Source: a bacterium (lineage in GTDB: Bacteria > UBP4 > UBA4092 > JAOAEQ01). Taken from it: 64,000 bases of DNA. The stretch spans positions 1 through 64,000 of the forward strand of contig JAOAEQ010000011.1 of NCBI GenBank assembly GCA_026416715.1, given 5' to 3'. How positions within the stretch are numbered: the stretch's first letter is position 1; the number at the start of each line of letters is the position of its first letter. The notes beneath the pieces are model-generated. The model made no database searches. It saw nothing but the letters and a program-made list of their open reading frames with translations, and had not been told where the DNA came from. Shown here one piece after another: positions 12,627 to 27,870 of this stretch. A program made the translations under genes and the position numbers.

Positions 12627-14744
12627 ATGGAATATAAAAGTTCAGTTTTACTCAATGGAATTGAATTGCAATTTGAAACTGGCAAAATGGCTAAACAAGC
12701 GGATGGCGCGGTAGTAGTTCGTTATGGCGATACGGTCATATTAGTCACGGCAGTTGCTGAAAAGGAACCTGCGGCGGACGTAGATTTTTTCCCGCTAACG
12801 GTTGAATATCGCGAACGGAGCTATGCTGCGGGAAAATTTCCGGGCGGATTTTTTAAACGAGAAGGGAAACCGAGCGATTTGGAAACATTAGGTGCGCGAC
12901 TGATTGACCGCCCGTTACGTCCGTTATTTCCGGAACATTATTATTGTGAAGTACAGGTTATTGTAACCGTTCTATCGTATGACGGAGAAAGTGATCCGGC
13001 AGTGTTAGCGGTGAACGGTGCGTCTGCCGCATTATGTATCTCTGATATCCCGTTTTCGATTCCGGTTGGTGCGGTTAAAGTTGGACGAATTAATGGCCAG
13101 TTGGTATTAAATCCGACGTTTGCGCAGTTGGAGGAGAGTGACATAAATCTTGTGGTTGCTGGGACTGATACCGCGATTATGATGGTTGAAGGGAGCGCAC
13201 GGGAAGTAGCGGAATCGGATATGCTTGCCGCATTAAAATTTGCGCATCAGTATATAGTGCAGATTATTGAATCGCAACGTGCGTTGATCCACCAGTGCGG
13301 GAAACCGAAACGAGAAGTGAAACCGATAGAACTCGACCCGGGATTGGTTGCTGCGGTGCGAGAAGTGGTTATTCCGAAATTGAATACTGCGATTCGAATT
13401 GCCGATAAAACGTCGCGAGAATCAGCGGTCGAAACAATCGTTAAAGATGCACTCGACCAATTTCTGCCCACTTATCCTGAGCAGGAGAAAGCAATTAAAT
13501 CAATTGTTTATCAAGCGGAATACGAACTCGTTCGGAAAATGATTTTAGATGAAAAACGACGCGCTGATGGACGAGGATATACTGATATCCGTCCGATAAC
13601 CTGCGAAGTAGGGATATTACCGCGAACCCATGGATCCGCATTGTTTACCCGGGGTCAAACGCAATCGTTAGCAGTAACTACGCTGGGAACCACCGAAGAT
13701 GAACAGTTGATTGACGGGATTCTAGGCGAAACAACCAAACGGTTTTTATTCCATTACAATTTTCCGCCGTATTCAGTAGGGGAAGTGCGTCCGATTCGTG
13801 GGCCTGGTCGTAGAGAAATCGGACATGGGAATTTAGCGGAACGGTCATTAGAAGCGGTTATCCCCTCTGCGGAAGTATTTCCGTATACGATACGGATTGT
13901 TTCTGATATTTTAGAATCGAATGGGTCATCATCGATGGCATCAGTGTGCGGTGGGACATTATCACTAATGGATGCTGGTGTTCCCATTAAATCGCCGGTT
14001 GCTGGGATTGCTATGGGATTAGTTAAAGAGGGAGAGCGATATGCAATTTTATCCGATATTATGGGGCTGGAAGACCATATCGGAGATATGGATTTTAAAG
14101 TTGCTGGGACTCAAGCTGGCATAACTGGCTTCCAGATGGATATCAAGGTCAGCGGCGTAACATTTGAAATTATGGAACAAGCGATGGAACAAGCCAAATC
14201 CGGTCGGTTGTTTATCCTACAGAAAATGCTGGAAACGATTGCGCAACCCCGGCCGGATATTTCGATTTACGCACCACGAATTATCACGATGCAAATTAAA
14301 CCAGACCAGATTCGGACAGTGATTGGTCCTGGTGGGAAAGTGATTAAAGATATCATCAGCAAGACCGGAACAAAAATCGATATTGAAGATGACGGAACTG
14401 TTAAGATTGCTTCCGTAGATGAAAAAGCAGCTCAGGAAGCAGTGCAGATGATTGAATATCTGACGGAAGAAGTTGAAGTCGGTAAAATTTATTTAGGGAA
14501 AGTAACGCGGATTCTTAATTTTGGCGCGTTTGTTGAAATTCTTCCTGGAAAAGAAGGGTTATGTCATATTTCGCAGTTAGATGATAAGCGGATATCGAAA
14601 GTTGAAGATGTAGTGCATGAAGGAGATACCATCCTGGTTAAAGTAATTGAAATTGATGACCAGGGTCGGATAAATTTAAGTCGTAAACTAGCGCTGCGAG
14701 AAAAAGAGAAATCCGGAACTCGCGGGGTCGAATCGCGAAAATAA
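12627..14744 (+). CDS. pnp: Polyribonucleotide nucleotidyltransferase (PNPase)
   Basis: PNPase is the phosphorolytic 3'-5' exoribonuclease of the RNA degradosome. The ATG at 12627 gives 705 residues, the family norm, beginning M-E-Y-K-S-S-V-L-L-N-G. Two RNase PH domains flank an alpha-helical linker (first with F-P-L-T-V-E-Y-R-E-R, second with R-T-H-G-S-A-L-F-T-R-G-Q-T-Q), then a KH domain (I-G-P-G-G-K-V-I-K) and a C-terminal S1 domain (about 620-690). An upstream ATG at 12531 would translate through the leader hairpins into unrelated sequence, so I reject it. Confidence 0.97.
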   Translation: MEYKSSVLLNGIELQFETGKMAKQADGAVVVRYGDTVILVTAVAEKEPAADVDFFPLTVEYRERSYAAGKFPGGFFKREGKPSDLETLGARLIDRPLRPLFPEHYYCEVQVIVTVLSYDGESDPAVLAVNGASAALCISDIPFSIPVGAVKVGRINGQLVLNPTFAQLEESDINLVVAGTDTAIMMVEGSAREVAESDMLAALKFAHQYIVQIIESQRALIHQCGKPKREVKPIELDPGLVAAVREVVIPKLNTAIRIADKTSRESAVETIVKDALDQFLPTYPEQEKAIKSIVYQAEYELVRKMILDEKRRADGRGYTDIRPITCEVGILPRTHGSALFTRGQTQSLAVTTLGTTEDEQLIDGILGETTKRFLFHYNFPPYSVGEVRPIRGPGRREIGHGNLAERSLEAVIPSAEVFPYTIRIVSDILESNGSSSMASVCGGTLSLMDAGVPIKSPVAGIAMGLVKEGERYAILSDIMGLEDHIGDMDFKVAGTQAGITGFQMDIKVSGVTFEIMEQAMEQAKSGRLFILQKMLETIAQPRPDISIYAPRIITMQIKPDQIRTVIGPGGKVIKDIISKTGTKIDIEDDGTVKIASVDEKAAQEAVQMIEYLTEEVEVGKIYLGKVTRILNFGAFVEILPGKEGLCHISQLDDKRISKVEDVVHEGDTILVKVIEIDDQGRINLSRKLALREKEKSGTRGVESRK

Positions 14745-14991
14745 TAGCCATAATAATCACTACGTAATGCACGTGAACAACCGTAGCGCGTTCATCATTT
14801 ACTACTAGTCATAACTATTTCGCTTCCTTTAAGATTCAAGATATAAAACGGGTAAGGGTTTCGGTTAGGTGACGTGCTGTCTAATATTCAATCATCGTTT
14901 AGTTTAGTTCGACTGCGATACCGTCATGATACCAACCTGCGATATAGTCGAATTGCGAAAACCGTTAACCGATATCCTATAGAATTGTTCT

Positions 14992-16251
14992 ATGACTCGC
15001 GGGAATCAAACTATGTTCAATAAAACCGTGTTGGATAATGGATTGACGATTGTAAGTGAACGTATACCCCATCTCCGTTCGGTATCACTGGGGGTATGGA
15101 TTCTTGCTGGGTCACGACAGGAAGAAGCGACTCAGAATGGACTTGCGCATTTTATCGAACATATGACATTTAAAGGGACAACGACGCGCAGCGCGAAACA
15201 GATTGCCATTGAAATCGAATCGGTTGGAGGAATGTTGAACGCATCTACCGACCGTGAATTAGCTTGTTTTTATGCGAAAGTTCTTGACCAGCATCTGCCG
15301 CTCGCGTGCGATTTACTGTCCGATATTGTACTCCATTCTAAATATGACCCGATAGATGTTGAAAAAGAAAAAAACGTTGTTATTGAAGAGATTCGCATGT
15401 ATGAAGATGACCCGGATGAGCTGATTACCGATATTTTTGCAGCAACGTTATGGAAAGACCAGCCGTTAGGCAGACCGATTTATGGAACGAAAGACCTCGT
15501 TCGAACGTTTACCCAGAACGATATTTTCAATTATCGGAAACAACATTACCAGCCGGAAAATATGGTTATCGCAGCGGCGGGTAATCTTGACCACCAGCAG
15601 TTAGTTGATTGTGTCGCGACGCATTTTCATCTTATTCCGAATGGAAATAGTCCTGCCCCGAAGCTTTTAGAAAAACCGCAACCGTTCTATCAGCAAGTTA
15701 CTATCGACCGTCCGTTAGAACAACTCCATTTCTGTTTAGGAACAGAATCTATTCCGCGGTCGCATCCGGATAGATATGCGTTAGGTATCCTCGGAACGAT
15801 ACTCGGTGGTGGGATGAGTTCGCGATTATTTCAGGAGATTCGCGAGAATCTCGGTCTGGTGTATTCCATCCATTCATTTGGAGTATATTTTCGTGATACC
15901 GGTTATTTTGCGGTCAGTGGCGCTACCGGACCGAAGAAATTAAACCGAGTTTTCCAGTTAGTGGATAAGGAATTGAAAAAAATGGTAGATGAATTGGTTA
16001 CCGAAGAAGAATTCCGTAATGCGAAAGAACATTTAAAAGGTTGGATGATGCTTGCGTTAGAAAGCACGAGTTCTCGCATGACCCGAATCGCTGATCTCCA
16101 AATTTATTTCAATAAATATATTTCATTAGATGAAACTATCGCGCGGATTGATGCGGTGACCCCGGATGATGTAAAACGATTAGCGACCCAATTATTTGCG
16201 GATAGCAAACTGACTACTGTTGTCATCGGACCGATTGATAAAATCGAGTAA
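14992..16251 (+). CDS. M16 family zinc metallopeptidase
   Basis: The protein matches the bacterial processing-peptidase-like M16B family. The inverted zinc motif H-F-I-E-H lies near residue 57 and the third ligand Glu lies about 75 residues on, in V-V-I-E-E-I-R-M-Y-E-D-D-P. The two-lobe architecture ends with the G-L-V-Y-S-I substrate-binding stretch. At 419 residues it is the usual length. An ATG at 15013 (M-F-N-K-T-V-L-D-N-G) is an equally good start. M16 genes often follow pnp. No signal peptide is seen, so it is probably cytoplasmic. Confidence 0.92.
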   Translation: MTRGNQTMFNKTVLDNGLTIVSERIPHLRSVSLGVWILAGSRQEEATQNGLAHFIEHMTFKGTTTRSAKQIAIEIESVGGMLNASTDRELACFYAKVLDQHLPLACDLLSDIVLHSKYDPIDVEKEKNVVIEEIRMYEDDPDELITDIFAATLWKDQPLGRPIYGTKDLVRTFTQNDIFNYRKQHYQPENMVIAAAGNLDHQQLVDCVATHFHLIPNGNSPAPKLLEKPQPFYQQVTIDRPLEQLHFCLGTESIPRSHPDRYALGILGTILGGGMSSRLFQEIRENLGLVYSIHSFGVYFRDTGYFAVSGATGPKKLNRVFQLVDKELKKMVDELVTEEEFRNAKEHLKGWMMLALESTSSRMTRIADLQIYFNKYISLDETIARIDAVTPDDVKRLATQLFADSKLTTVVIGPIDKIE

Positions 16252-16272
16252 AATGGCTAACGTAAGCCTTAA

Positions 16273-16415
16273 TAATGTCAAATTATAATATCCTAATGTC
16301 AAATAGATAACGTGGGAACGAAAGAATTGAAGAACCGCAACCTGTTCATGTATATATTTTTTGTTCCGTTTTTTCGTTCTTAGGTTGTTGTATTTGGCAT
16401 TTGCGCTTTGACATT
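16273..16415. repeat. Intergenic nested inverted repeats
   Basis: Between the M16 gene and the following membrane protein there is a direct pair TAATGTCAAAT (16273-16283 and 16294-16304), an inverted pair GAACGAAA/TTTCGTTC (16316-16323 with 16372-16379), and a TTTGACATT (16407-16415) inverted relative to the first motif. The arrangement is nested, like a small non-coding repeat element. Related sequences occur near 27.8, 37.6 and 53.8 kb. Confidence 0.5.
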
Positions 16416-17947
16416 TGATATTGAACTCAGGGATTGCTCCTATATCTAAATCTCGGATAGTAGTATCTAAATCCGAGATCTATCTATTGATTCTCCTTAT
16501 TCTAACGGTTTTCCTGCGTGTTTTTCTACTCCCAACGTATCCGCCTGGATTATGGTATGATGAAGCGATTAACGGATTAGATGCATTAACGATTTATTCT
16601 GGAAAAGCGTATCCGATATTTTTTGATTCTTACGGTCATCCGCGTGAACCGTTATTCCTCTATTTCATTGCAGTACTCTATTCGATTTTCGGAGTTTCGG
16701 CATTCACGTTGCGGGTCGCTGCCGCGATTATCGGTAGTATCACGGTTATCGTTTTCTACTATTTCATCCGCTATCTTTTTACCAATCGGATCGCGTTCAT
16801 CGCTTCGTTTCTATTAGCGACCGCTAAATGGCATCTCATATTCAGCCGATTATCGTTTCGAACGATTCTAACCCCGCTGTTGCTCATTCTGGTTTGCTAC
16901 TGTTTATTCCGCGCGTTCAATGAACGCAAACGAATCTGGTATATTTTAACCGGTATATTTTTAGGGATCGGAATGTATACGTATCTTGCGTTTCGATTAG
17001 CCCCGTTGTTCATATTGATAATTATTATGTATGCTTATGTTCAAGAGAAGAATACGATCGTACCTCGTAAATCTAACATTGCCATTATTTTCCTTGTCTG
17101 GTTTCTCGTCTTCCTCCCGCTATTGATAGATTATATCGTGCATCCGTTCCATTTCTTCGGAAGAACGGACGAAGTTACGGTTTTCCAGAACGGATTCGGT
17201 GAGGGAATTAAACATATTGTCGCGAATGCATTGAAAGTTGCAATGATGTTTTCGATTCCGGGGAAAGGCGACCCGGAACCGAAACATAATTTTCCAGGCG
17301 AACCAGCGTTACCATTCTTCTTATCAATTTTTTTGGTTATCGGAACCATCGTTGCGGTCAAAAAGATTCAAGATACTCGATACTTTACGCTCCTAGTATG
17401 GTTTATTCTTTTCCTAACTCCGAGTGTTTTCTCGATGGGTGCGCCGAATACGCTACGAACCACCGGCGCTCTACCCGCATTATATGCGCTGATCGCACTC
17501 GGGTTCGATTGGGTCTATACATTCGGATTACATAAACTCCTATCGCAAACGCATCGGGTGCTCAATATTATTGCAGTAATCATTTTACTTTATTGCGGGT
17601 CGGTTGGTGTATATCAATATTTCCGTTGGGCGAAATCTGACCGCACTTGGCTTGCGTTCAACACTGCAGAAGTTGAATTGGGTCACCAAATCAAATTATG
17701 GAGTTCGGATTCGAAATCCGCAATTTATCTTCCGAAAGTAGTTGCGGAACATCCGACGGTTATCTTCTCTGCATATCCATTTGATTATTTCTACTATGAG
17801 ACCCTTGACCCGTTACCGAACACGATTTATATTATCATTGAACCGAGTATATTCGTCCAACTACAAACGCAGTTCCCAAACGGGAACATCATCCGCGAAT
17901 TTAAACTGATTAACGGACAAACCTGGGCTATTGCATATAAAACCTAA
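16415..17947 (+). CDS. GT39/ArnT-like integral membrane glycosyltransferase
   Basis: The protein has about 11 hydrophobic helices. The first periplasmic loop carries P-G-L-W-Y-D-E-A (near residue 45), the acidic D-E of GT-C enzymes such as protein mannosyltransferases and ArnT. Further on it has the family-like R-E-P-L-F-L-Y and P-A-L-Y-A-L-I-A-L segments. GT-C enzymes move a sugar from a polyprenyl-phosphate donor to a protein or lipid outside the membrane; donor and acceptor here are unknown. The start is uncertain: no ATG lies near the N terminus and the TTG at 16415 falls inside a repeat. It is 24 bases from the next membrane gene. Confidence 0.75.
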   Translation: MILNSGIAPISKSRIVVSKSEIYLLILLILTVFLRVFLLPTYPPGLWYDEAINGLDALTIYSGKAYPIFFDSYGHPREPLFLYFIAVLYSIFGVSAFTLRVAAAIIGSITVIVFYYFIRYLFTNRIAFIASFLLATAKWHLIFSRLSFRTILTPLLLILVCYCLFRAFNERKRIWYILTGIFLGIGMYTYLAFRLAPLFILIIIMYAYVQEKNTIVPRKSNIAIIFLVWFLVFLPLLIDYIVHPFHFFGRTDEVTVFQNGFGEGIKHIVANALKVAMMFSIPGKGDPEPKHNFPGEPALPFFLSIFLVIGTIVAVKKIQDTRYFTLLVWFILFLTPSVFSMGAPNTLRTTGALPALYALIALGFDWVYTFGLHKLLSQTHRVLNIIAVIILLYCGSVGVYQYFRWAKSDRTWLAFNTAEVELGHQIKLWSSDSKSAIYLPKVVAEHPTVIFSAYPFDYFYYETLDPLPNTIYIIIEPSIFVQLQTQFPNGNIIREFKLINGQTWAIAYKT

Positions 17948-17971
17948 TCATTTTATTTTTGCTATACTCAA

Positions 17972-19429
17972 ATGAATGCTCACATCAACCTTTGGCTAAA
18001 AACCTATCGAATTGAGTTCATACTTTTTTTCTTACTGTGGTTCACCTACGGCTATTTCATCCATCAGAACCCTGGATGGAATGTTACCACGCGGATGGAT
18101 TTCATCTATGCCGTAGTTGACCAAGGGACACTTTCGATAGATGCTTATTACCATCAGCCGTCGAAAGAATATTATACCGGCGATGTTGCTGAATATAACG
18201 GTCAGCATTATTCGGATAAAGCGCCAGGACTCGCCCTGCTCGGCATTCCGGTCTATGCGGGATTTATCAACCTAGCCGATATAATCGGCTGGCATCCGAG
18301 TCCGTTAATTTCTCGATATATTGTCACCTTATTTACGGTCGGATTACTTTCCGCAACGCTTGGCGTAATCTTGTATCGGTTTCTAGCGGTTTTTGATGCG
18401 AATAACCAGAATCGGGTGATGGTGGTTTGCGCCTATGCGTTTGGAACCATTGCGTTTCCTTATTCAACCTTATTTTTTAGTCATATACCCGCAGCTGTAT
18501 TTTGTTTTTTGGGATTCTATCTCATATTTACAAAAATAAGATATCAACCGGTAGAGGTTAGAAATCAGATGGGAGAAGCCAGAAAACAACAAAATCGAAC
18601 TACTAGCTACTGGCTTCTAGCCTCAGGTTTTTTTGCCGGCTATGCGCTGATAACTGAGTATCCAGTCGGGCTCATCGTTTTCGGATTAGTCGTTTATTTA
18701 TACCTCCAGCGGAAGAAAATACACGATGTTATTTTATTTCTTGTTCCTATATTTATTTGCTTACTAATTCCTGCGATGATCAATTATCTCCAGTTCGGAA
18801 CACCGTTTGCGCTTGGGTATCAATATGAGAAACTGGATGAATTCCGCACCGGAATGAGTCGCGGATTGTTCGGGATAACTGTTCCCTCGTTAAAAACATT
18901 GTATGGGATAACCGTTCATCCGTTTCGTGGATTATTCTTCTGGTCGCCAGTATTAATCTTATCGCTATTCGGCTTCTATCATTTCTATCGGGAGAAGAAG
19001 TTCCGAAACGAGTTCTGGTTATTCCTTGTTATCGTCGTCGTATTTTTCTTGTTTAACATCTCATATTTCGCTTGGTGGGGCGGGTGGGCGACTGGACCAC
19101 GGCATATCATTCCGATACTGCCGTTTTTAAGTATCCCGATGATCTATCTATTCTCTCGATTGAAAAAACTCAGTCTCGGATTGAGTTTGATTTCGATAGG
19201 TTTAATGATTATCGCTACTGCAGCTGACCCGCAGGTTCCACAATCCTATCTCTATCCGCTTTGGGAATTCGCGCTTCCTCGATTGATGTATGGTATTGTA
19301 ACTCTCAATCTCGGTTCCCTCTTATTTGGATTACAAGGGTTAACAAGTTTGATTCCGTTACTTAGTCTCCTTATCCTCGGCATCGGATTACTCGTTAGAG
19401 TATCACAACAAGCATCTAAAACAACTTAA
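17972..19429 (+). CDS. Polytopic membrane protein, probable GT-C-type glycosyltransferase
   Basis: This 485-residue protein has 10 or more transmembrane helices. A long loop after the first helix contains acidic residues (T-R-M-D-F-I-Y and D-V-A-E-Y-N-G-Q-H-Y-S-D-K-A-P-G), the position where GT-C enzymes hold their catalytic Asp/Glu. A later W-W-G-G-W-A-T-G-P-R-H loop is typical of this group of uncharacterised bacterial membrane proteins. It lies 24 bases after the ArnT-like gene and is probably co-transcribed. Glycosyltransferase function is inferred from topology and context only. Confidence 0.6.
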   Translation: MNAHINLWLKTYRIEFILFFLLWFTYGYFIHQNPGWNVTTRMDFIYAVVDQGTLSIDAYYHQPSKEYYTGDVAEYNGQHYSDKAPGLALLGIPVYAGFINLADIIGWHPSPLISRYIVTLFTVGLLSATLGVILYRFLAVFDANNQNRVMVVCAYAFGTIAFPYSTLFFSHIPAAVFCFLGFYLIFTKIRYQPVEVRNQMGEARKQQNRTTSYWLLASGFFAGYALITEYPVGLIVFGLVVYLYLQRKKIHDVILFLVPIFICLLIPAMINYLQFGTPFALGYQYEKLDEFRTGMSRGLFGITVPSLKTLYGITVHPFRGLFFWSPVLILSLFGFYHFYREKKFRNEFWLFLVIVVVFFLFNISYFAWWGGWATGPRHIIPILPFLSIPMIYLFSRLKKLSLGLSLISIGLMIIATAADPQVPQSYLYPLWEFALPRLMYGIVTLNLGSLLFGLQGLTSLIPLLSLLILGIGLLVRVSQQASKTT

Positions 19430-19557
19430 TCGCAGAGAACGCAGAGTTTATCCTGCTTTTCATCCTCAAATAACTACTGATTATATTCCTTGCAGGGGAG
19501 TTGAATTAAATCGTATAATAATTAAAATCGAGTTTAATGAGTTAAATAAAATCATTA

Positions 19558-19632
19558 CTACCAAGATACTAAGACATAAAGTTTTACAAATTCATTTTTT
19601 AGTGATTCGTGGTGGTTTTTGTGCCTTGGTAG
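19558..19632. repeat. Widely spaced inverted repeat upstream of tRNA-Ser
   Basis: CTACCAAG (19558-19565) is repeated in inverse as CTTGGTAG (19625-19632), with partial similarity continuing inward. The segment lies in the 266-base gap between the membrane gene and tRNA-Ser. It looks like a non-coding intergenic repeat; no function is apparent. Confidence 0.35.
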
Positions 19633-19695
19633 CAGGTTTTGGTTTTCCAATTTAACCCATTTATCCATTTAACCATTTAACTGGGTTTAAGGTAC

Positions 19696-19786
19696 GGAGA
19701 GATGTCCGAGTTGGTCGAAGGAGCACGCCTGGAGAGCGTGTAGGTGGGTAACTGCCTCGTGGGTTCGAATCCCACTCTCTCCGCCA
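19696..19786 (+). tRNA. tRNA-Ser (anticodon GGA), CCA encoded
   Basis: A 7-bp acceptor stem (19696-19702 with 19776-19782), discriminator G and encoded CCA (19784-19786) frame a cloverleaf. The anticodon stem CACGC/GCGTG (19724-19728 with 19736-19740) closes the loop CTGGAGA, giving GGA at 19731-19733. A long variable arm, as in class II tRNAs, precedes a GTGGG/CCCAC T arm with TTCGAAT. The downstream neighbours are an eroded regulator and a nuclease gene, so this tRNA may have been an integration site. Confidence 0.97.
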
Positions 19787-19819
19787 GAGTACGCTAAACC
19801 TTTATCTAGCACAAGTAAA

Positions 19820-19855
19820 AGTTTGTTTTATATCGGGAGGGAAACAAAACAAACT
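19820..19855. repeat. AT-rich 10-bp inverted repeat downstream of tRNA-Ser
   Basis: AGTTTGTTTT (19820-19829) pairs perfectly with AAAACAAACT (19846-19855) across a 16-base loop containing GGGAGGG. It is not followed by a T tract. It lies between tRNA-Ser and the decayed XRE regulator. It could be a tRNA transcript end or a leftover of an inserted element. Confidence 0.4.
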
Positions 19856-19950
19856 GCTAAATAACCTAAACACAATATCAGTTCGAACTTTATTTTAACC
19901 AGCAGCGGTTTTATACTTTTTCATTGATTGATTTTATATTTTTTGTTAAT

Positions 19951-20159
19951 ATGAGAGAAGATGAAAATGCAAAAGTAAACAAAAAATATTGAGTGAAAAT
20001 TTCGGCTTAACTCAAGACGATTTAGCCAAGAAAGTTAATATTAAATACACTACGCTTATAGAGCTCGAAAAGTGGAGCAGTTAATCAACCAAGTGTTTAA
20101 ACAATGGCAAAAATTGACAAAACTCGCTGGGTGTTAGTATTGAGAAGTTAAATAAATAA
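19951..20159 (+). pseudogene. Decayed XRE-family helix-turn-helix regulator
   Basis: One frame from 19986 reads I-L-S-E-N-F-G-L-T-Q-D-D-L-A-K-K-V-N-I-K-Y-T-T-L-I-E-L-E-K, a typical XRE/Cro HTH, and then stops at 20082. The conserved continuation appears in other frames: V-N-Q-P-S-V, stop, T-M-A-K-I-D-K-T and finally G-V-S-I-E-K-L-N-K ending at 20159. The expected product is thus spread over at least two frameshifts and one stop, and no start codon is in frame with the HTH. It lies 15 bases ahead of the EVE-nuclease gene and may once have controlled it. Confidence 0.8.
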
Positions 20160-20174
20160 ACCTGGCCAAACATT

Positions 20175-21287
20175 ATGCGATATTATATTGATTTATTTTC
20201 TCCAGAAACCGCAAAAGCTTTTGCAGATTCATCTCAAGATGTAACTGGGTTTCGTATTTCTCGAAAAACTTATGTAGAAAATCAAAAAATCGGCCTTGGC
20301 GACAGATTTATTTGTTATGTTACGAGGATACAAAGATTTATAGGTGTATTAGAAATACAAAGCGATCCTTATATTGATAACATACCAATACTTACTGCGG
20401 AAAACGATCCCTTTGTGTTAAGGTTCAAAGTAAAAACGCTTGTTTGGTTACCATTAGAAAAGTCTATACCTATCCATATTGATGAATTATGGAATAACCT
20501 TTCTTTTACAAAAGGGCTTGCTAAAGACAACCTTAGATGGATATTTATGGTTCGTGGTTCTCCTAAGCTTTGGCCGCAGAAAGATTGCGAGCTTATTGAA
20601 AAAGCATTGTTGGAACAATCTAAAATTCAGAAAGATTACAGCTTTTCCGAAGAAGAATCTAGTAAATTAAAACCTCAAAAAATAAGAGTAAGTGATAAAA
20701 AAGAAATAATAGTATCGGTACCAGAGGAAGAAGTTACAGAAGAAATTGAGATTAAAGAAGAAGATAGGAAAGCAATCGCTATTCAAGCTAAACTTGCGGA
20801 AATTGGAGAAAAACTCGGCCTGAAAATATGGTTACCAAATAGCGATAGAGTTAAAGTTTTAAGCATTTGGAAACCTAAAAATGAAGACATACTATTAAAC
20901 GAATTACCCTTAGTCTTTGATGATACAACACTTAAAACAATAAGAAATATAGATGTTTTATGGATAAAAGGACGTTCGATCGTTAGAGCTTTTGAAGTAG
21001 AACATACGACTTCAATATATTCTGGGATTCTAAGAATGGCAGATTTATTGGCACTTCAACCTATGCTCAATATTAAAATTCATATTGTAGCGCCTTCTGA
21101 GCGTAAGGAAGCTGTTTTCAGACAAATAACAAGACCGGTTTTTTCTTTAATCGGCGAAAACTCTCTTTCGGAAGTATGCTCTTATATTTCATATGATTCG
21201 ATTATAGAATTAGCTCAGGAAGAAAGATTAGAGTTTATGAATGATACAATTGTAGATGAGTATTCTGAGTTTTTTGGTGAACAATAA
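20175..21287 (+). CDS. EVE domain fused to PD-(D/E)XK-like nuclease (candidate modification-dependent restriction enzyme)
   Basis: Residues 1-150 match the EVE fold of the PUA superfamily: Y-Y-I-D-L-F-S-P-E-T, a G-D-R-F-I-C-Y-V strand, R-F-I-G-V-L-E-I, and the closing W-I-F-M-V-R-G-S-P-K-L. EVE domains bind modified bases. A charged linker (about 155-200) leads to a helix with I-Q-A-K-L-A-E-I-G-E-K-L-G-L-K-I-W, then a nuclease-like core (about 250-320) with I-D-V-L-W and A-F-E-V-E-H-T-T-S-I-Y, consistent with the D...ExE of PD-(D/E)XK enzymes. The gene is clearly AT-richer than its neighbours, with AGA, AGG and ATA codons, and lies beside tRNA-Ser and a dead XRE gene. No methyltransferase is near, which suits a type IV-like role. 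Function is inferred. Confidence 0.75.
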   Translation: MRYYIDLFSPETAKAFADSSQDVTGFRISRKTYVENQKIGLGDRFICYVTRIQRFIGVLEIQSDPYIDNIPILTAENDPFVLRFKVKTLVWLPLEKSIPIHIDELWNNLSFTKGLAKDNLRWIFMVRGSPKLWPQKDCELIEKALLEQSKIQKDYSFSEEESSKLKPQKIRVSDKKEIIVSVPEEEVTEEIEIKEEDRKAIAIQAKLAEIGEKLGLKIWLPNSDRVKVLSIWKPKNEDILLNELPLVFDDTTLKTIRNIDVLWIKGRSIVRAFEVEHTTSIYSGILRMADLLALQPMLNIKIHIVAPSERKEAVFRQITRPVFSLIGENSLSEVCSYISYDSIIELAQEERLEFMNDTIVDEYSEFFGEQ

Positions 21288-21351
21288 TCTCGTTTTATCT
21301 GTGGCAAGTTTAACCGTTTATTTTATTCCGCAGAATTAACTTCTACAATCA

Positions 21352-22437
21352 ATGCATCCTATCCCAGTTTTTGATGGGCATAACGATACGCTCTATCATC
21401 TTTTCCTGCCAGAAAAAAGTAAAGGACGGACTTTTTTCGTCGAAAGTTCGTTCGGGCATATCGATTATCCGCGCGCGAAAAAAGGCGGACTAATAGGCGG
21501 GTTCTTCGGGATTTATACTCCACCGCCAAAATCTACTTTGGAACCAGTCACGCAGTTCAACGCCCAGATGACCGAATCGGAATATAATGCCCCGCTACCA
21601 CCACCGTTAAATTATGATTATGCACATACGTTTGTTCATTCAGTAATCGATTTCGCTGAACAGCTAGAACAGCTATCTGCTGGGAAAGTTAAAATTGTCC
21701 GGCGGTATTCCGAATTACAACAGTGGATTGAAAATGATATCCTTGCGTTCGTCCTCCATATCGAAGGAGCGGAAGCTATTAATCCGGATTTATCGGATTT
21801 ACCGGAGTTCTATCAGCGTGGGGTTAGGTCGCTCGGATTAGTCTGGAGCCGGCCGAATGCGTTCGGTTCCGGTGTTCCGTTCCGATATCCGAGTTCGCCG
21901 GATATCGGTCATGGACTGACTCAGGCAGGGAAAAACCTAGTCGCAGCGTGTAATGAATTAGGGATTATCCTAGATTTATCGCATCTGAATGAACAAGGGT
22001 TCTGGGATGTAGCGAAACTATCGAAACATCCGTTAGTCGTCAGTCATACCGGCGTGCATGCGATATGTCCATCAAGTCGCAACTTAACTGATGAACAGAT
22101 TGATGCGATCGCTGATTCTGGCGGAGTTGTCGGGATAATGTTCCAACCGGCACATCTGCAATTTAGCGGTAACAAGGACCCTATGCCGAATGATAATGTT
22201 GCAATAACCGATATTGTTAAACATATTGATTATATTAAGACGCGAATTGGAATAGAACATGTTGCGTTCGGATCGGATTTCGATGGCGCTCAAATGCCGA
22301 AAGAGTTAAACGATGTTTCAGGGTTACAGAAATTGATTGAGGCACTTCGCCAAGCGGAATATGCGGATAAAGATATCGAAAAGATTGCGTATAAGAATTG
22401 GTTTCGAGTTATTCAAGAAACGTGGATACGTGGATAG
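21352..22437 (+). CDS. Membrane dipeptidase, peptidase M19 family
   Basis: M19 enzymes are di-zinc dipeptidases of the amidohydrolase fold. The zinc motif H-x-D appears at residues 10-12 (D-G-H-N-D-T-L), the bridging Glu in H-I-E-G-A-E-A, further His in L-D-L-S-H-L-N and V-V-S-H-T-G, and the active-site strand G-S-D-F-D-G-A near residue 308. The length, 361 residues, fits. No signal peptide is present, so it is probably cytoplasmic and recycles dipeptides. A terminator-like hairpin lies about 210 bases downstream. Confidence 0.93.
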   Translation: MHPIPVFDGHNDTLYHLFLPEKSKGRTFFVESSFGHIDYPRAKKGGLIGGFFGIYTPPPKSTLEPVTQFNAQMTESEYNAPLPPPLNYDYAHTFVHSVIDFAEQLEQLSAGKVKIVRRYSELQQWIENDILAFVLHIEGAEAINPDLSDLPEFYQRGVRSLGLVWSRPNAFGSGVPFRYPSSPDIGHGLTQAGKNLVAACNELGIILDLSHLNEQGFWDVAKLSKHPLVVSHTGVHAICPSSRNLTDEQIDAIADSGGVVGIMFQPAHLQFSGNKDPMPNDNVAITDIVKHIDYIKTRIGIEHVAFGSDFDGAQMPKELNDVSGLQKLIEALRQAEYADKDIEKIAYKNWFRVIQETWIRG

Positions 22438-22649
22438 ATGCGCAATAGCAAATGTCGAATGTATCAAATGTGATATCCCCTAATTTTCTGATAACAATAT
22501 TGTACTTCACTGAGGCAAGCAAGTTCGCCATTGGAGAACTTGCTCCATCGTTTATTTCATTCGAGTTAGATTTGTTAACACATCGCTAACTTGTCGTTTC
22601 CAGTTAGCAGATAATATTTCATATAATTTACTGTTTAAAGAAGCATATT

Positions 22650-22680
22650 AGCAGATTCTGCATTAGAAAATCTGCTTTTT
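22650..22680 (+). terminator. Intrinsic terminator between M19 dipeptidase and EamA transporter
   Basis: AGCAGATT (22650-22657) pairs with AATCTGCT (22669-22676) across an 11-base loop and is followed by a T tract (22676-22680). It lies 27 bases before the start of the transporter gene, so it either ends the dipeptidase transcript or acts in the transporter leader. Confidence 0.7.
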
Positions 22681-22707
22681 CTGATATGATATTATAAATA
22701 GTATCGT

Positions 22708-23592
22708 ATGACGTGGCTCGTATATACTCTCATAGCAACGTTGTTAATTTCGATAGTAAATATTATTGATAAATATCTGATATCGAAACTAGGGGTTAAA
22801 CCGCTCGTTCCGGTGATGATATTAGGATTAATCGGAGCGATTTCAGCGGGAGTCATTCTTGCGATTGAAGGGTTCGTCATTTTAGCTCCGGTTCATTTAT
22901 GGTTAGCGTTCATTTGCGGGATTCTGTTCATCTTGAATGTTTATTTCTATTTTGAAGCGGTGAAAATTGAAGATATCTCTCGGATTGTTCCGCTGTATTA
23001 TCTCTCGCCGATATATATTCTGGTTATCGCTTGGTTCTTTCTCGGAGAACGGTTCTCCGCATCGAAATATATCGGAATCCTGCTGATCGTTTCGATGGCA
23101 ATCGTTATTTCGATGAAAGATTTTAAATCGTTCCGGATGAGTAGAGCGTTTTGGTATATGATCTTAGCATCGGTGGCGGTAAGTATTGTGCAAGTTATAA
23201 CCAAATATCTCTTAAATTCAAACGAGTTCTGGCCGGTATTCGCATATATCCGGCTAGGAGCGTTTGTCGCATTAATTCCGGTATATTGGACGAAATATCC
23301 GGAATTGAAAAGGCAATATCAGACCGCTGGAAAGAAACCGTTTGGGATAATCGTTGTGAATGAAACCGTAACCTTATTTTCGTTAATACTCTACACTGCA
23401 GCGATTGCAGTTGGATTTGTAACTCTGGTTAACGCGTTATCCGCAACTCAACCATTATTCGTTTTAATGTTCTCGGTGTTGCTGAGTCTATGGTATCCGC
23501 AGATTCTCAAAGAAGAACTTTCTAAATCTGGGATATTGATTAAGCTGGTTGCGATCATCCTGATGTTTATCGGTATCATGCTCATCAGATGA
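22708..23592 (+). CDS. EamA/DMT superfamily transporter
   Basis: The 294-residue protein has ten hydrophobic helices in two homologous halves, the drug/metabolite transporter layout. Features include the first-helix S-I-V-N-I-I-D-K-Y and the half-ending P-L-Y-Y-L-S-P-I-Y-I-L-V and F-L-G-E-R. It is related to small-molecule exporters and may move metabolites or polyprenyl-linked amino sugars; the substrate cannot be told. A terminator-like hairpin follows closely, before tRNA-Met. Confidence 0.88.
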   Translation: MTWLVYTLIATLLISIVNIIDKYLISKLGVKPLVPVMILGLIGAISAGVILAIEGFVILAPVHLWLAFICGILFILNVYFYFEAVKIEDISRIVPLYYLSPIYILVIAWFFLGERFSASKYIGILLIVSMAIVISMKDFKSFRMSRAFWYMILASVAVSIVQVITKYLLNSNEFWPVFAYIRLGAFVALIPVYWTKYPELKRQYQTAGKKPFGIIVVNETVTLFSLILYTAAIAVGFVTLVNALSATQPLFVLMFSVLLSLWYPQILKEELSKSGILIKLVAIILMFIGIMLIR

Positions 23593-23598
23593 AAAAAG

Positions 23599-23635
23599 AG
23601 TTGGTTTGTTCCGTCATTTAAGAAACAACTTTTTT
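23599..23635 (+). terminator. Probable terminator after EamA transporter
   Basis: AGTT-G-TTT (from 23599, one bulged G) pairs with AAA-C-AACT (23623-23630), followed by six T (23630-23635). The stem is AT-rich and imperfect, so the call is moderate. It would separate the transporter message from the tRNA pair. Confidence 0.5.
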
Positions 23636-23685
23636 AATTTGCTCTTTTTGTAGTACAATATATAGTTAAATAAATCAATGGTTAT

Positions 23686-23762
23686 GGCGGCGTAGCTCAG
23701 ATGGCTAGAGCATGCGGTTCATACCCGCACTGTCAGGGGTTCGAATCCCTTCGCCGCCACCA
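23686..23762 (+). tRNA. tRNA with anticodon CAU (Met elongator or Ile2), CCA encoded
   Basis: The acceptor stem GGCGGCG/CGCCGCC (23686-23692 with 23752-23758) and encoded CCA frame a normal cloverleaf. The anticodon stem TGCGG/CCGCA closes the loop TTCATAC, giving CAT. A G1-C72 pair argues against initiator tRNA. Elongator Met and lysidine-modified Ile2 cannot be separated confidently by eye. Confidence 0.95.
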
Positions 23763-23790
23763 TAGTCATTTCACATTGAGCAGATACAAC

Positions 23791-23875
23791 GCCGGGATGG
23801 TGGAATTGGCATACACGTACGTTTGAGGTGCGTATGGGGAGACCCGTGCGGGTTCAAGTCCCGCTCCCGGCACCA
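23791..23875 (+). tRNA. tRNA-Leu (anticodon GAG), CCA encoded
   Basis: The acceptor stem GCCGGGA/TCCCGGC (23791-23797 with 23865-23871), discriminator A and encoded CCA are present. The anticodon loop TTGAGGT gives GAG. A class II variable arm and the GCGGG/CCCGC T arm with TTCAAGT complete the molecule. It lies 28 bases after the CAU tRNA, probably in one transcript. Confidence 0.97.
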
Positions 23876-24053
23876 TATTTAATCTCACATTTCTTTCTCG
23901 TCATATGTTTCATCGTGTTCTCTTTCGTCTTCATCGAGTGAACCTCAGTGATGTTTCCGATTAAACGCCGGTTAATCAAACGCAATTGTTATCCGAACGA
24001 ATGAAAACCAACCGAACGAGCATAAATTTTATTCGAAACAATTAGTTTTCCCC

Positions 24054-24082
24054 TTGACACTCTACTTAAATAGAGATACAAT
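24054..24082 (+). promoter_or_regulatory. Sigma-70-type promoter for the DppA-type aminopeptidase
   Basis: TTGACA (24054-24059) and TACAAT (24077-24082) are separated by exactly 17 bases. Transcription should start near 24089, giving a leader of about 35 bases with GAGGAG at 24104-24109. The TTG of the -35 box happens to be in frame with the gene; it is promoter, not start codon. Confidence 0.85.
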
Positions 24083-24122
24083 CGTAAGGCAAATTTATTT
24101 AACGAGGAGCCACATTATTGAT

Positions 24123-24923
24123 ATGAAACTCTTTATTTCTGCGGATATGGAAGGTATCTCCGGAATTGTGCATAACGACCAGCGGAATCGTGACGGTCGG
24201 GATTATGAGAAATCACGCAAATTGATGACGGAAGAAGTGAATGCGGCTATTGACGGTGCACTAGCTGCAGGAGTTAAAGAAATCGTGGTTAACGATTCGC
24301 ATGATACGATGCGGAATATCATTCCGGCAGATTTACATCCCGCCGCTAGTCTCATCTCCGGAGATTATAAACCATTGTCAATGATGCAAGGGATAGATAG
24401 AACATTTGATTTTGTTTTTTTTATTGGCTATCATGCGAAACGTGGAACCGCTGGTGCGGTAATGGATCATACCTATACCGAAAGCGGGGTATATCGACTC
24501 CGAATTAATGGAAAACCTTACGGCGAAACCGGAATAAACGCTGCGGTGGCTGGATATTTTGGTGTGCCGGTTATTTTAGTTTGTGGTGATGATAAATTAG
24601 CGCTGGAAGCGAAAGAAACCCTTAAAAACGTGGTTACGGTAACCGTAAAATTCGGGCAAGGGAGAACATCAGCGCGGAATCTCCATCCGGAAAAGGTTAA
24701 ACAACTCATTAAATCGGCAGCGATTGATGCGATTCAGCGCCGGAAAGAATTTCAGCCATTTAAATTTACTCCGCCAATCGTTATGGACCTCGATTTTGTC
24801 TATACGCATTACGCTGACCGGGCTTGTCGCATACCAGGGGTGAAACGGACCGGTGCAGCATCAATTCGATATATTAGCAGAGATTATCTAGAATTGTTCA
24901 AAGTTTTCCTAGCCGTAATGTAA
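24123..24923 (+). CDS. dppA: D-aminopeptidase DppA, peptidase M55 family
   Basis: M55 enzymes are zinc D-aminopeptidases that release D-Ala from short peptides. The ligands are visible: D and E in S-A-D-M-E-G (residues 8 and 10), His in N-D-S-H-D-T-M, His in G-Y-H-A-K-R-G and Glu in Y-G-E-T-G-I-N. From the ATG at 24123 the protein has 266 residues, the family norm; a sigma-70 promoter ends 41 bases earlier and rules out the longer in-frame TTG. A role in recycling peptidoglycan peptides, alongside the M19 dipeptidase nearby, is plausible but inferred. Confidence 0.93.
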   Translation: MKLFISADMEGISGIVHNDQRNRDGRDYEKSRKLMTEEVNAAIDGALAAGVKEIVVNDSHDTMRNIIPADLHPAASLISGDYKPLSMMQGIDRTFDFVFFIGYHAKRGTAGAVMDHTYTESGVYRLRINGKPYGETGINAAVAGYFGVPVILVCGDDKLALEAKETLKNVVTVTVKFGQGRTSARNLHPEKVKQLIKSAAIDAIQRRKEFQPFKFTPPIVMDLDFVYTHYADRACRIPGVKRTGAASIRYISRDYLELFKVFLAVM

Positions 24924-25017
24924 CCTAATAGTTGAATATTTGATTTTCTTATGTTATTCTTAAAGCTGAAATTTTAGTAATGCTGGATTCATATTATCGT
25001 TGAGGTGTGGTATAAGT

Positions 25018-25557
25018 ATGAACTTGCGCTTGCCAAATTTCATCTTATTGTTAATAGTTTGTCTTTGTTTAGCAATACTTATTACCGGCTGCGCTAAAAC
25101 CAGAGTCGCTAAAAAACCGATTATCATCGAACCAGCCGAACCTGTTCCGCCACCAGAACCTCCTCCAGCACCACTACCGCCACCGCCGCCGGAACCTGAA
25201 TCAGTTACTCCAGCGCCGCCCCCGCCCCCTGAACCAGTTGTAGTTATCCCATCAGTACCACCATCACCGCCGCCCCCGCCACCAAAACCTGTTGCACCAC
25301 CAGCAAAAAAACCAGCGCTACAATTCGCTACGGTTACCGTTCCCCCAATAAGCATTCTAGGCAAAAAAATATCTACCGTTGATATTCTAACCGCACCGGG
25401 ACCAAATAATCCTGTAGTTGCTCAGGTTTCAGATAAAACTCGGGTACAAATTATTTCAAAAACCGCAAATAACTGGTATAAAATCAAATTGCCTGACGGG
25501 CGAGTTGGTTGGATTTCAGGGAATTTTCTAATCATCCCGGTTAAAACCAGTCCGTGA
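25018..25557 (+). CDS. SH3b-domain lipoprotein with long Pro-rich linker
   Basis: From the ATG at 25018 (GAGGTG at 25002-25007) the 179-residue product has a signal peptide with lipobox L-I-T-G-C (Cys25). A low-complexity Pro/Glu-rich stretch (about 40-100) should act as an extended spacer from the membrane. The C-terminal 70 residues form a bacterial SH3 domain: I-S-T-V-D-I-L-T-A-P-G-P, then W-Y-K-I-K-L-P-D-G-R-V-G-W-I-S. SH3b domains bind peptidoglycan, so this is probably an envelope protein that touches the cell wall. It precedes the zinc-ribbon membrane gene by 42 bases. Confidence 0.8.
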   Translation: MNLRLPNFILLLIVCLCLAILITGCAKTRVAKKPIIIEPAEPVPPPEPPPAPLPPPPPEPESVTPAPPPPPEPVVVIPSVPPSPPPPPPKPVAPPAKKPALQFATVTVPPISILGKKISTVDILTAPGPNNPVVAQVSDKTRVQIISKTANNWYKIKLPDGRVGWISGNFLIIPVKTSP

Positions 25558-25599
25558 TAAAGTGTATACTGGTATAATAACTTGGCAATAGGTTATCTT

Positions 25600-26739
25600 A
25601 TGAAATCCTGTCCTGCGTGTAAATATCAGAATGAAGATGATGCAAAGTTCTGTAAAGGATGCGGTATTCCACTCAAATCCGCGCCGGTAACCGTTGCTGC
25701 GGAAGAGACAGAGAAACAGCCGATTAGTGCAAAGACGGTATTCCAAAAAGTTGACAAAGAAATTGATGGTAATAACATTGAAATAAAAACTATCCGATGC
25801 CCGAACTGTGGAAATGATACGCTGCCTGATTTTGAAACCTGTACGCAATGCGGGAGACCATTGATTCCGATTGCGGTTCAATCGTATATGCAATCGCAGA
25901 AACAAGAAGCATCGGAAAAATTCAATCTCGAAAAAAAACGTATCAATGGTAACGAAGAGATAAAAAATCAACCGCAACCGCCAGCGGAACCGTTCAAGGA
26001 AGAGTCGCCCGATGAATCATGGGAAGTGGTTTACTGTCCAGTTTGCGGAAGGAGAACGCGAACCAGTTTTGGATATTGCCTGAACTGTCGGGTCAGTTTA
26101 AGTCCACAATCGCAACTGGCAACAGGCTCTGATTCCGCTAGTATTACCAGCCGCCCAGTAGAACTTCAACCTACTGAAGCTAGAGGTTTACCACCGGCGG
26201 ATATCGCCGGAGAAAAACCGAAACCAGCAATTCACAAGAATCGGTTACGAGCTATTATTCCGATAATTATTGTGATTTTTATTGTCAGTATAATATTCCT
26301 AGGGATACTGTTATTCGTTTATCGTTCGCATCGTTCAGAACGAATTGCACTAGAAGAAGAACTGGGTTCAGTTGCTGAAACAGGAATAACGGCGGAAATA
26401 TCAGCGGTTGTTGCAGTTTTCGATACCGTCCGTGATGCAACGCTGGCGAAAGATACCGAGTTGCTCATGAGCTGTTATTCCGCTCAATTTCCGGATTATC
26501 AGCAAAAACTTAAGGATACTGAAGAAACGATTCGAACCTATGATATTGTTTCCTTAACCTATGTGATAGATAGTTCGGCGATAAAAATTACTCCGGATAC
26601 AGCGGAACTACCGATACAATGGCAGATTAAATTGCGTAAATATGATGACGGGTCGACTATCTCCGCTACCGATTCGAATTATGTTGTTCTGACTAAAGAA
26701 AATAACCGCTGGAAAATTGTTCAAGTGTTCCAGCGGTAG
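25600..26739 (+). CDS. Zinc-ribbon membrane protein with C-terminal NTF2-like domain
   Basis: Three C-x2-C...C-x2-C zinc ribbons lie in the N-terminal half: C-P-A-C...C-K-G-C-G (about 4-21), C-P-N-C-G...C-T-Q-C-G (about 67-85), and C-P-V-C-G...C-L-N-C (about 146-164). A transmembrane helix (about 222-246) separates these cytoplasmic ribbons from a region (about 270-379) shaped like an NTF2/SnoaL-type domain with the closing W-K-I-V-Q-V-F-Q. The ATG at 25600 is preferred over an in-frame upstream start that adds six residues. The stop lies only 24 bases from that of the convergent GHL10 gene. Function unknown. Confidence 0.7.
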   Translation: MKSCPACKYQNEDDAKFCKGCGIPLKSAPVTVAAEETEKQPISAKTVFQKVDKEIDGNNIEIKTIRCPNCGNDTLPDFETCTQCGRPLIPIAVQSYMQSQKQEASEKFNLEKKRINGNEEIKNQPQPPAEPFKEESPDESWEVVYCPVCGRRTRTSFGYCLNCRVSLSPQSQLATGSDSASITSRPVELQPTEARGLPPADIAGEKPKPAIHKNRLRAIIPIIIVIFIVSIIFLGILLFVYRSHRSERIALEEELGSVAETGITAEISAVVAVFDTVRDATLAKDTELLMSCYSAQFPDYQQKLKDTEETIRTYDIVSLTYVIDSSAIKITPDTAELPIQWQIKLRKYDDGSTISATDSNYVVLTKENNRWKIVQVFQR

Positions 26740-26763
26740 ACATTATACAAAATTGGAAATATG

Positions 26764-27771
26764 TTATAATTCCTGATTTGCAGATTTAAGTTCAGCGAGT
26801 TGTTCTTTTGATATTCCGGGGTAATGATAGATCACTACACCATCCGCTCCTGCTGCTTTCGCTGCTTGCATTCCGAGTCGAATCTCACCAGGTTTCATCT
26901 CTTCTATTGGATATCCGAATCCGGCATAATAGTTACATTTCCCTTTCATTTCTTTAAGTCCTAATTCGGTAGCTTCTTTAACCCAGGTGATAGGTTTACC
27001 CCACTGTTTTTGCGCATAAATCATCGTGCAAAGGTGGTCGAGTTGGTCTGCAAACGATGGCCAATCTTGCAGAACATTTTTTCGCGCAATATCCGGTGTC
27101 GGAAATACTGCAGCTGAAAGTTTTAAATTTGGCGGGATTTGGTTTCGTATCTGGCGAACAGTATCAGTTATCGTTTGATATCGCCATTGAGTCCACTGCT
27201 GATATAATGCTGACTTCGGGTCGAGCGGAACATCCACCGGATCAACCCCAGTTTCTTTCATATATCTTCCTCGACAATTCAAACAATAACAGAAACTATA
27301 TTCTGGCACTTCATCACGCGGAATTGCTAATCTACCCTGAAACGCAAAAATATCTGGATATCGGATAAAATCTAGATGGAGTCCATCACATCCGGTTTCC
27401 GCAACTTTCTTTTGTACCCGCTGTAAATAATAGTTCAAATAATGCTTATTATCCGGGCACCACCAACTATGTTTACCCCAAAGTATCTTCTGGCGGGTAT
27501 TATATCCTTCACGGCTGACCGCAAGCCAATATGGCCGTTCATTCATAGTTTTCCGGACTTCGTTATCCTGTGAAACCAAATTATTTATCATCCAAGCATG
27601 GAATTCAAGTCCAACTTGATGTGCCTGTTCAACGAGTTTCGATATTTCTTGCGGAGAAGCAGTTTCTACAAGAACCCAAACTTTTTCTGCACCGACCTCT
27701 TTCATTTCAGCACAAGACCGAGCGAAATCCATATCTGAGTTGTATATAACCCAAAATCCTTGAAGAATCAT
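26764..27771 (-). CDS. GHL10 (DUF187-type) glycoside hydrolase-like protein, cytoplasmic form
   Basis: The 335-residue protein reads as a TIM barrel of the GHL10/PF02638 group. Diagnostic are G-L-E-F-H-A-W-M after the third strand and G-L-H-L-D-F-I-R-Y-P on strand 4, followed by a loop with C-Y-C-L-N-C, then L-S-A-A-V-F-P and D-G-V-V-I-Y-H-Y. There is no signal peptide. It lies 99 bases downstream of a secreted member of the same family on the same strand, so the two may act on one substrate inside and outside the cell. The activity is not established. Confidence 0.8.
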   Translation of the reverse strand: MILQGFWVIYNSDMDFARSCAEMKEVGAEKVWVLVETASPQEISKLVEQAHQVGLEFHAWMINNLVSQDNEVRKTMNERPYWLAVSREGYNTRQKILWGKHSWWCPDNKHYLNYYLQRVQKKVAETGCDGLHLDFIRYPDIFAFQGRLAIPRDEVPEYSFCYCLNCRGRYMKETGVDPVDVPLDPKSALYQQWTQWRYQTITDTVRQIRNQIPPNLKLSAAVFPTPDIARKNVLQDWPSFADQLDHLCTMIYAQKQWGKPITWVKEATELGLKEMKGKCNYYAGFGYPIEEMKPGEIRLGMQAAKAAGADGVVIYHYPGISKEQLAELKSANQEL

Positions 27772-27793
27772 AATGGTGCACTAACGAAACTAG

Positions 27794-27853
27794 GTAAAAC
27801 GAAATAAACGCAAACTCGTAGAAGGTGTAATTCTAACGTTCTTTCGTTTTTAC
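27794..27853. repeat. Inverted repeat between the two GHL10 genes
   Basis: GTAAAACGAAA (27794-27804) faces TTTCGTTTTTAC (27842-27853), identical except for one extra base. It resembles the ACGAAA/TTTCGT repeats near 16.3, 37.6 and 53.8 kb. Confidence 0.5.
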
Positions 27854-27870
27854 GATCTTACGTTTTACAG

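Follow-up and report, generated by a model that had tools for sequence, protein, structure and literature searches.

What does a lone, AT-rich gene that joins a reader of modified bases to a nuclease-like domain do for the bacterium that carries it? The gene lies in the 64,000-nucleotide stretch of contig JAOAEQ010000011.1 that was analysed here (positions 1 to 64,000, hereafter the window), where it occupies 20175..21287 on the forward strand and encodes a 370-residue protein. The answer that we consider probable is that this EVE-nuclease is a type IV-like, modification-dependent restriction endonuclease (MDRE), working as one chain and without NTP, that cuts modified DNA of phage or other foreign origin and moves horizontally.

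Results

The EVE-nuclease open reading frame (ORF) begins 388 bp downstream of a tRNA-Ser (GGA) gene (19696..19786, forward strand), just past the remnant of an XRE regulator. Among the 41 ORFs of at least 200 amino acids in the window it has the lowest GC content (0.329 versus a mean of 0.424, z -4.5), with a GC3 of 0.222 versus 0.382 (z -3.7). The flanking genes are ordinary ones: upstream are two membrane proteins, of which Pfam identifies the first as a PMT_2-type glycosyltransferase, and downstream is an M19 dipeptidase. The host genome holds no second copy of the gene. Another low-GC gene in the window (4001-5539, about 512 amino acids, GC 0.350, GC3 0.255) has no Pfam match.

The XRE remnant (about 19980..20156, forward strand) is split over two frames, reading LSENFGLTQDDLAKKVNIKYTTLIELEK in one frame, GAVNQPSV in the next and LGVSIEKLNK again in the first, and its translation across the breaks matches Pfam HTH_3 (E 2.3e-8). 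A preliminary description of the locus had noted the adjacent tRNA-Ser, the broken regulator and a gene richer in AT than its flanks, all of which hold, and had placed the gene in a small island. The term island is too strong, as the locus comprises one gene and a pseudogene remnant. There is no integrase ORF between 19787 and 21352 and no direct repeat that involves the tRNA-Ser or its end, and of the four closest loci L004 alone has a tRNA. Lacking an integrase and a repeat of the tRNA end, the locus gives no support to a tRNA-integrated genomic island, and we rejected tRNA-linked integration. We likewise rejected the XRE gene as a conserved partner, since no such gene was seen directly upstream of the close relatives that have sequence there (L002-L004), and the remnant is probably incidental.

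The N-terminal part of the protein (residues 1-146, 20175..20612, forward strand) is an EVE domain, a reader of the PUA superfamily, and the family leaves little doubt on this point. A profile of 24 aligned members matches the solved UPF0310/EVE proteins PH1033 (E 1.6e-10) and MJECL36 (E 2.7e-9) over residues 1-143. The window protein alone gives a weak match to Pfam EVE (PF01878; E 0.021, 15.3 bits, under the cut-off of 23), and its relative L036 passes that cut-off (29.0 versus 23, E 1.2e-6). An AlphaFold model built from the 24-member alignment has a pLDDT of 86.6 and a pTM of 0.52, the latter making the placement of the domains uncertain; an earlier model from four close sequences was poor (pLDDT 60.2) and was set aside. 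The model agrees with the EVE fold, aligning to PH1033 (1wmm) with a Z of 16.4 and an rmsd of 2.5 over 132 residues, to 2hd9 with a Z of 16.1 and to 2p5d with a Z of 15.8; YTH domains align with a Z of about 12. PH1033 (1wmm, 2hd9), the closest solved match, is a stand-alone EVE domain without a nuclease, whereas the window protein carries one. An invariant aromatic residue, F80, aligns with a tyrosine of PH1033, and the alignment is suggestive of a role in the base pocket, which in the EVE domain of VcaM4I is formed by P24, W82 and Y130 (PMC7897488).

A linker (residues 147-194, 20613..20756, forward strand), disordered at about 170-192 where pLDDT falls below 50, leads to a PD-(D/E)XK-like nuclease domain (residues 195-363, 20757..21263, forward strand). 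The PADLOC model REase_II matches residues 188-328 with an E of 2.9e-14. In the AlphaFold model, helix 195-213, strand 217-219, strands 261-265 and 268-275, helix 281-294 and strand 301-306 follow one another in the order of the PD-(D/E)XK core, that is helix, strand, two triad-bearing strands, helix and strand. The predicted catalytic residues are D260, just ahead of strand 261-265 (20952..20954, forward strand), and E274-x-E276, at the end of strand 268-275 (20994..21002, forward strand). When 38 divergent nuclease domains were aligned, these three positions were the only invariant columns. Thus the proposed fusion of an EVE domain to a nuclease-like core with a D...E-x-E pattern stands: none of the 38 domains lacks the aspartate or the E-x-E pair, and the predicted C-terminal half did not prove to have some other fold. 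Secondary-structure order and the invariant triad support a PD-(D/E)XK fold, short of proof. The nuclease-domain profile found no relative in the PDB and neither a relative nor a model in Pfam. Fold-search matches cover residues 1-154 only, and no PD-(D/E)XK structure is among the matches listed; their absence does not count against the fold, as the list was taken up by EVE matches. Genome G397 encodes a divergent second EVE-nuclease paralogue (L054, 820-2019) in which FAIE replaces FEVE, so that the first catalytic glutamate is lost and the paralogue is possibly inactive.

A homologue search for the same fusion and its neighbours returned twelve EVE-nuclease relatives from Bacteria, Archaea and viral contigs, all of them full-length or nearly so except for one broken copy. 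L001 and L003 are from Deltaproteobacteria, L002 is from Kerfeldbacteria and L004 is from Altiarchaeota; the last is the broken copy (8001-8826), in which about 110 N-terminal and about 170 C-terminal residues are left, the middle is deleted and there are frame changes. Close relatives are 67-70% identical to the window protein in amino acids, and comparison with L001-L003 gave a pN of 0.19-0.23 and a pS of 0.71-0.74. This identity, together with a pN far below pS, indicates that the ORF encodes a real protein under purifying selection. More distant relatives (L011, L012, L035 and L036) are 34-36% identical, L013 being nearly identical to L011, and the viral-contig relatives share 50% (L059), 47% (L033) and 39% (L034) identity with the window protein. 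The L033 copy adjoins tail genes (tape measure and major tail protein) and the L059 copy adjoins a resolvase. A 135-residue ORF in L059 (7101-7508) overlaps the end of the EVE-nuclease gene there and contains a stretch, GIDVIGAKDGKKWIIEVKG, that resembles another PD-(D/E)XK-type nuclease; it has no Pfam match.

The EVE-nuclease gene spreads horizontally, across phyla and domains of life. In L001-L004 its GC content is 0.31-0.35 within loci of 0.47-0.52. The L002 and L003 proteins share 65% identity, as against 48% for the Ddl and 31% for the Alr proteins from these two loci. The gene occurs patchily, in 2 of 7 genomes of one searched group and in 1 of 21 of another. Taken with the pN and pS values, these contrasts describe a selected protein that moves between lineages. 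A tblastn search of phage records gave no match to the EVE-nuclease, plasmid matches span the nuclease half only, and PHROGs has no family for it.

The nuclease core also occurs with other N-terminal parts. In L055/L056 it is joined to a domain that, as a two-sequence profile, matches the YTH reader of Thermococcus gammatolerans McrB (6p0f, E 4.8e-7), which targets 6mA DNA (PMC7897488; PMC12707154). The core fused to a YTH-type domain with this match runs over 5082-6203 in L075 and 4963-6006 in L094; the L094 protein alone, one of the two sequences of the profile, gave no YTH match by phmmer. L072 combines the core with a weak HARE-HTH and lies beside an N6/N4 methylase fragment, and L073 (4538-7069) encodes an 843-residue protein in which the core, at the C-terminus, shares the chain with an N6/N4 DNA methylase domain. 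The core is contained in 175 plasmid records, many of them from Enterococcus. In the plasmid loci L006-L010 it belongs to relatives of about 420 amino acids that are annotated as type II restriction endonucleases and have a conserved N-terminal domain of no assigned fold, and one of these five examined loci (L008) adjoins a class I SAM methyltransferase whose target is unassigned. PDB matches of the N-terminal domain of the 415-427-residue relatives to spike heptad repeats were taken as chance; by eye, an LGPAVANxLYF stretch in that domain is helix-hairpin-helix-like.

Discussion

How might such a protein work? The likely mechanism, based on its anatomy and on analogy with VcaM4I, is capture of a modified base by the EVE domain followed by metal-dependent cleavage by the C-terminal domain. 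The N-terminal EVE domain would sample DNA, flip out a base and retain it only when it is suitably modified; again by analogy with VcaM4I, our default guess for that base is a 5-substituted cytosine. A flexible linker would tether the EVE domain to the C-terminal D...E-x-E nuclease domain, which may bind metal at D260, E274 and E276 and, probably acting as a dimer, cut the DNA close to that base. We infer the DNA target, base flipping, cleavage and dimerisation, as we do the biological role, which would be defence against phages with modified DNA.

Several lines of evidence favor an MDRE, namely the EVE domain, the invariant triad, the lone-gene context, the exchange of readers, the mobility of the gene and its carriage on viral contigs. 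Reader and nuclease lie in one chain, and the motif scan detected no cognate methyltransferase close to any cellular copy, that of the window included. The gene is solitary both in the window and at the other cellular loci, where its neighbors are housekeeping genes; it may follow lysS or ddl, for instance, or sit between guaA and dnaE. A host that lacks the modification needs no protective methyltransferase, which lets a single gene pass from genome to genome and be active immediately.

An alternative possibility is that the protein is an ordinary type II-like restriction enzyme that acts at an unmodified site, with the EVE domain serving structure or sequence specificity, and with a methyltransferase elsewhere in the genome, or rarity of the site, giving protection. 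Such a reading would suit the type II annotation of the nuclease core and the N6/N4 methylases adjacent to or inside the proteins of L072 and L073. Because these two loci, and possibly L084, have a methyltransferase, we also gave up the general statement that such enzymes are missing from every relative of the nuclease core. The EVE-type loci themselves present another picture. ORFs within 13001-28500 of the window contain no amino-methyltransferase motif (DPPY type), and the whole window contains no m5C-methyltransferase motif, in keeping with the earlier observation that the gene has no methyltransferase partner. Around the relatives, amino- and m5C-methyltransferase motifs are absent near 12 of the 13 EVE-type loci, all cellular ones included, in a crude scan that would miss unusual enzymes and covers flanks only (for L001, 299 bp upstream). 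The exception is the viral contig L034, where an NPPY-type methyltransferase lies about 450 bp upstream of the EVE-nuclease gene, so that this copy could belong to a methylation-protected pair. A type II enzyme arriving on its own would be lethal to a new host, whereas this gene has spread between phyla and between domains of life, and we therefore regard a type II-like enzyme as improbable.

It is also conceivable that the substrate is RNA, with the EVE domain reading a modified RNA base, for instance in tRNA, and the nuclease cutting RNA or triggering cell arrest on infection. A survey of EVE domains includes proposals of RNA roles (PMC7641849), and the model of the reader is similar to YTH domains, a group with many m6A RNA binders. 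The partners of the nuclease point the other way, since DNA methylases adjoin or are fused to its relatives, indicating DNA as the substrate of the core. Moreover, the YTH-bearing relatives match the DNA 6mA reader of McrB, and there is no recurrent neighbor of an antitoxin-like kind. An RNA-directed enzyme or toxin is thus quite unlikely. Least probable is a DNA-repair or lesion-processing nuclease whose EVE domain recognizes damaged or deaminated bases: chromosomal copies often come immediately after a housekeeping gene (lysS, ddl or guaA) as if co-transcribed, but patchy occurrence, distant transfer, phage carriage and the decayed L004 copy fit an accessory defence gene better.

The modification-dependent enzyme is therefore the reading that we retain. 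The preliminary description had proposed a single-chain type IV-like anti-phage enzyme, and the lone-gene contexts, the swapping of readers and the transfer across phyla and domains strengthen that proposal, although we still infer it. A broader idea, to which we give about an even chance, is that the nuclease core, a family without a Pfam model, is a common cutting module for interchangeable readers (an EVE domain, a YTH-type 6mA reader, HARE-HTH, the conserved N-terminal domain of the plasmid relatives or a DNA methyltransferase), each combination restricting a different modification state in a natural series of MDREs. As the nuclease half is constant and the reader half changes, base specificity could be compared across natural relatives. 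The EVE-nuclease family supplies small candidates for such a comparison, each encoded by one gene, from bacteria, archaea and phages, and MDREs of new specificity also serve to map DNA modifications.

How does the window protein compare with known systems? Bell, Wolf and Koonin (2020, PMC7641849) predicted EVE-PD(D/E)XK fusions as a class of putative type IV enzymes or MDREs, with the same two-domain core architecture and the same predicted role as the window protein, and the window gene belongs to this already predicted kind. They give a class and ours is one gene, whose nuclease subfamily is compared with theirs by the class description only; any novelty may lie in the nuclease family and in the way it swaps readers. 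The literature consulted on EVE enzymes yielded no characterised EVE-PD(D/E)XK enzyme. The closest counterparts in layout are the EVE-HNH MDREs VcaM4I, TspA15I and CmeDI (PMC7897488), which likewise have an N-terminal EVE sensor, a linker and a C-terminal nuclease in one chain, VcaM4I being similar in size to the window protein. The EVE domain of VcaM4I accommodates a flipped 5mC or 5hmC in a hydrophobic pocket and directs the HNH nuclease (PMC7897488). In these enzymes the nuclease is of the HNH type, whereas that of the window protein is D...E-x-E and PD-(D/E)XK-like, and the 5mC/5hmC specificity of VcaM4I has been tested, whereas the window protein is known from its sequence and a model. 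MspJI and PvuRts1I, like the window protein, carry a PUA-superfamily reader and a PD-(D/E)XK nuclease in one chain, but their reader is SRA or SRA-like rather than EVE, and the profile of the window nuclease matches no solved structure. Finally, the YTH reader of T. gammatolerans McrB (6p0f) exemplifies the kind of reader that this nuclease core carries in L055/L056; in T. gammatolerans it feeds a GTP-driven McrBC machine, whereas in L055/L056 the nuclease is in the same chain as the reader and there is no NTPase.
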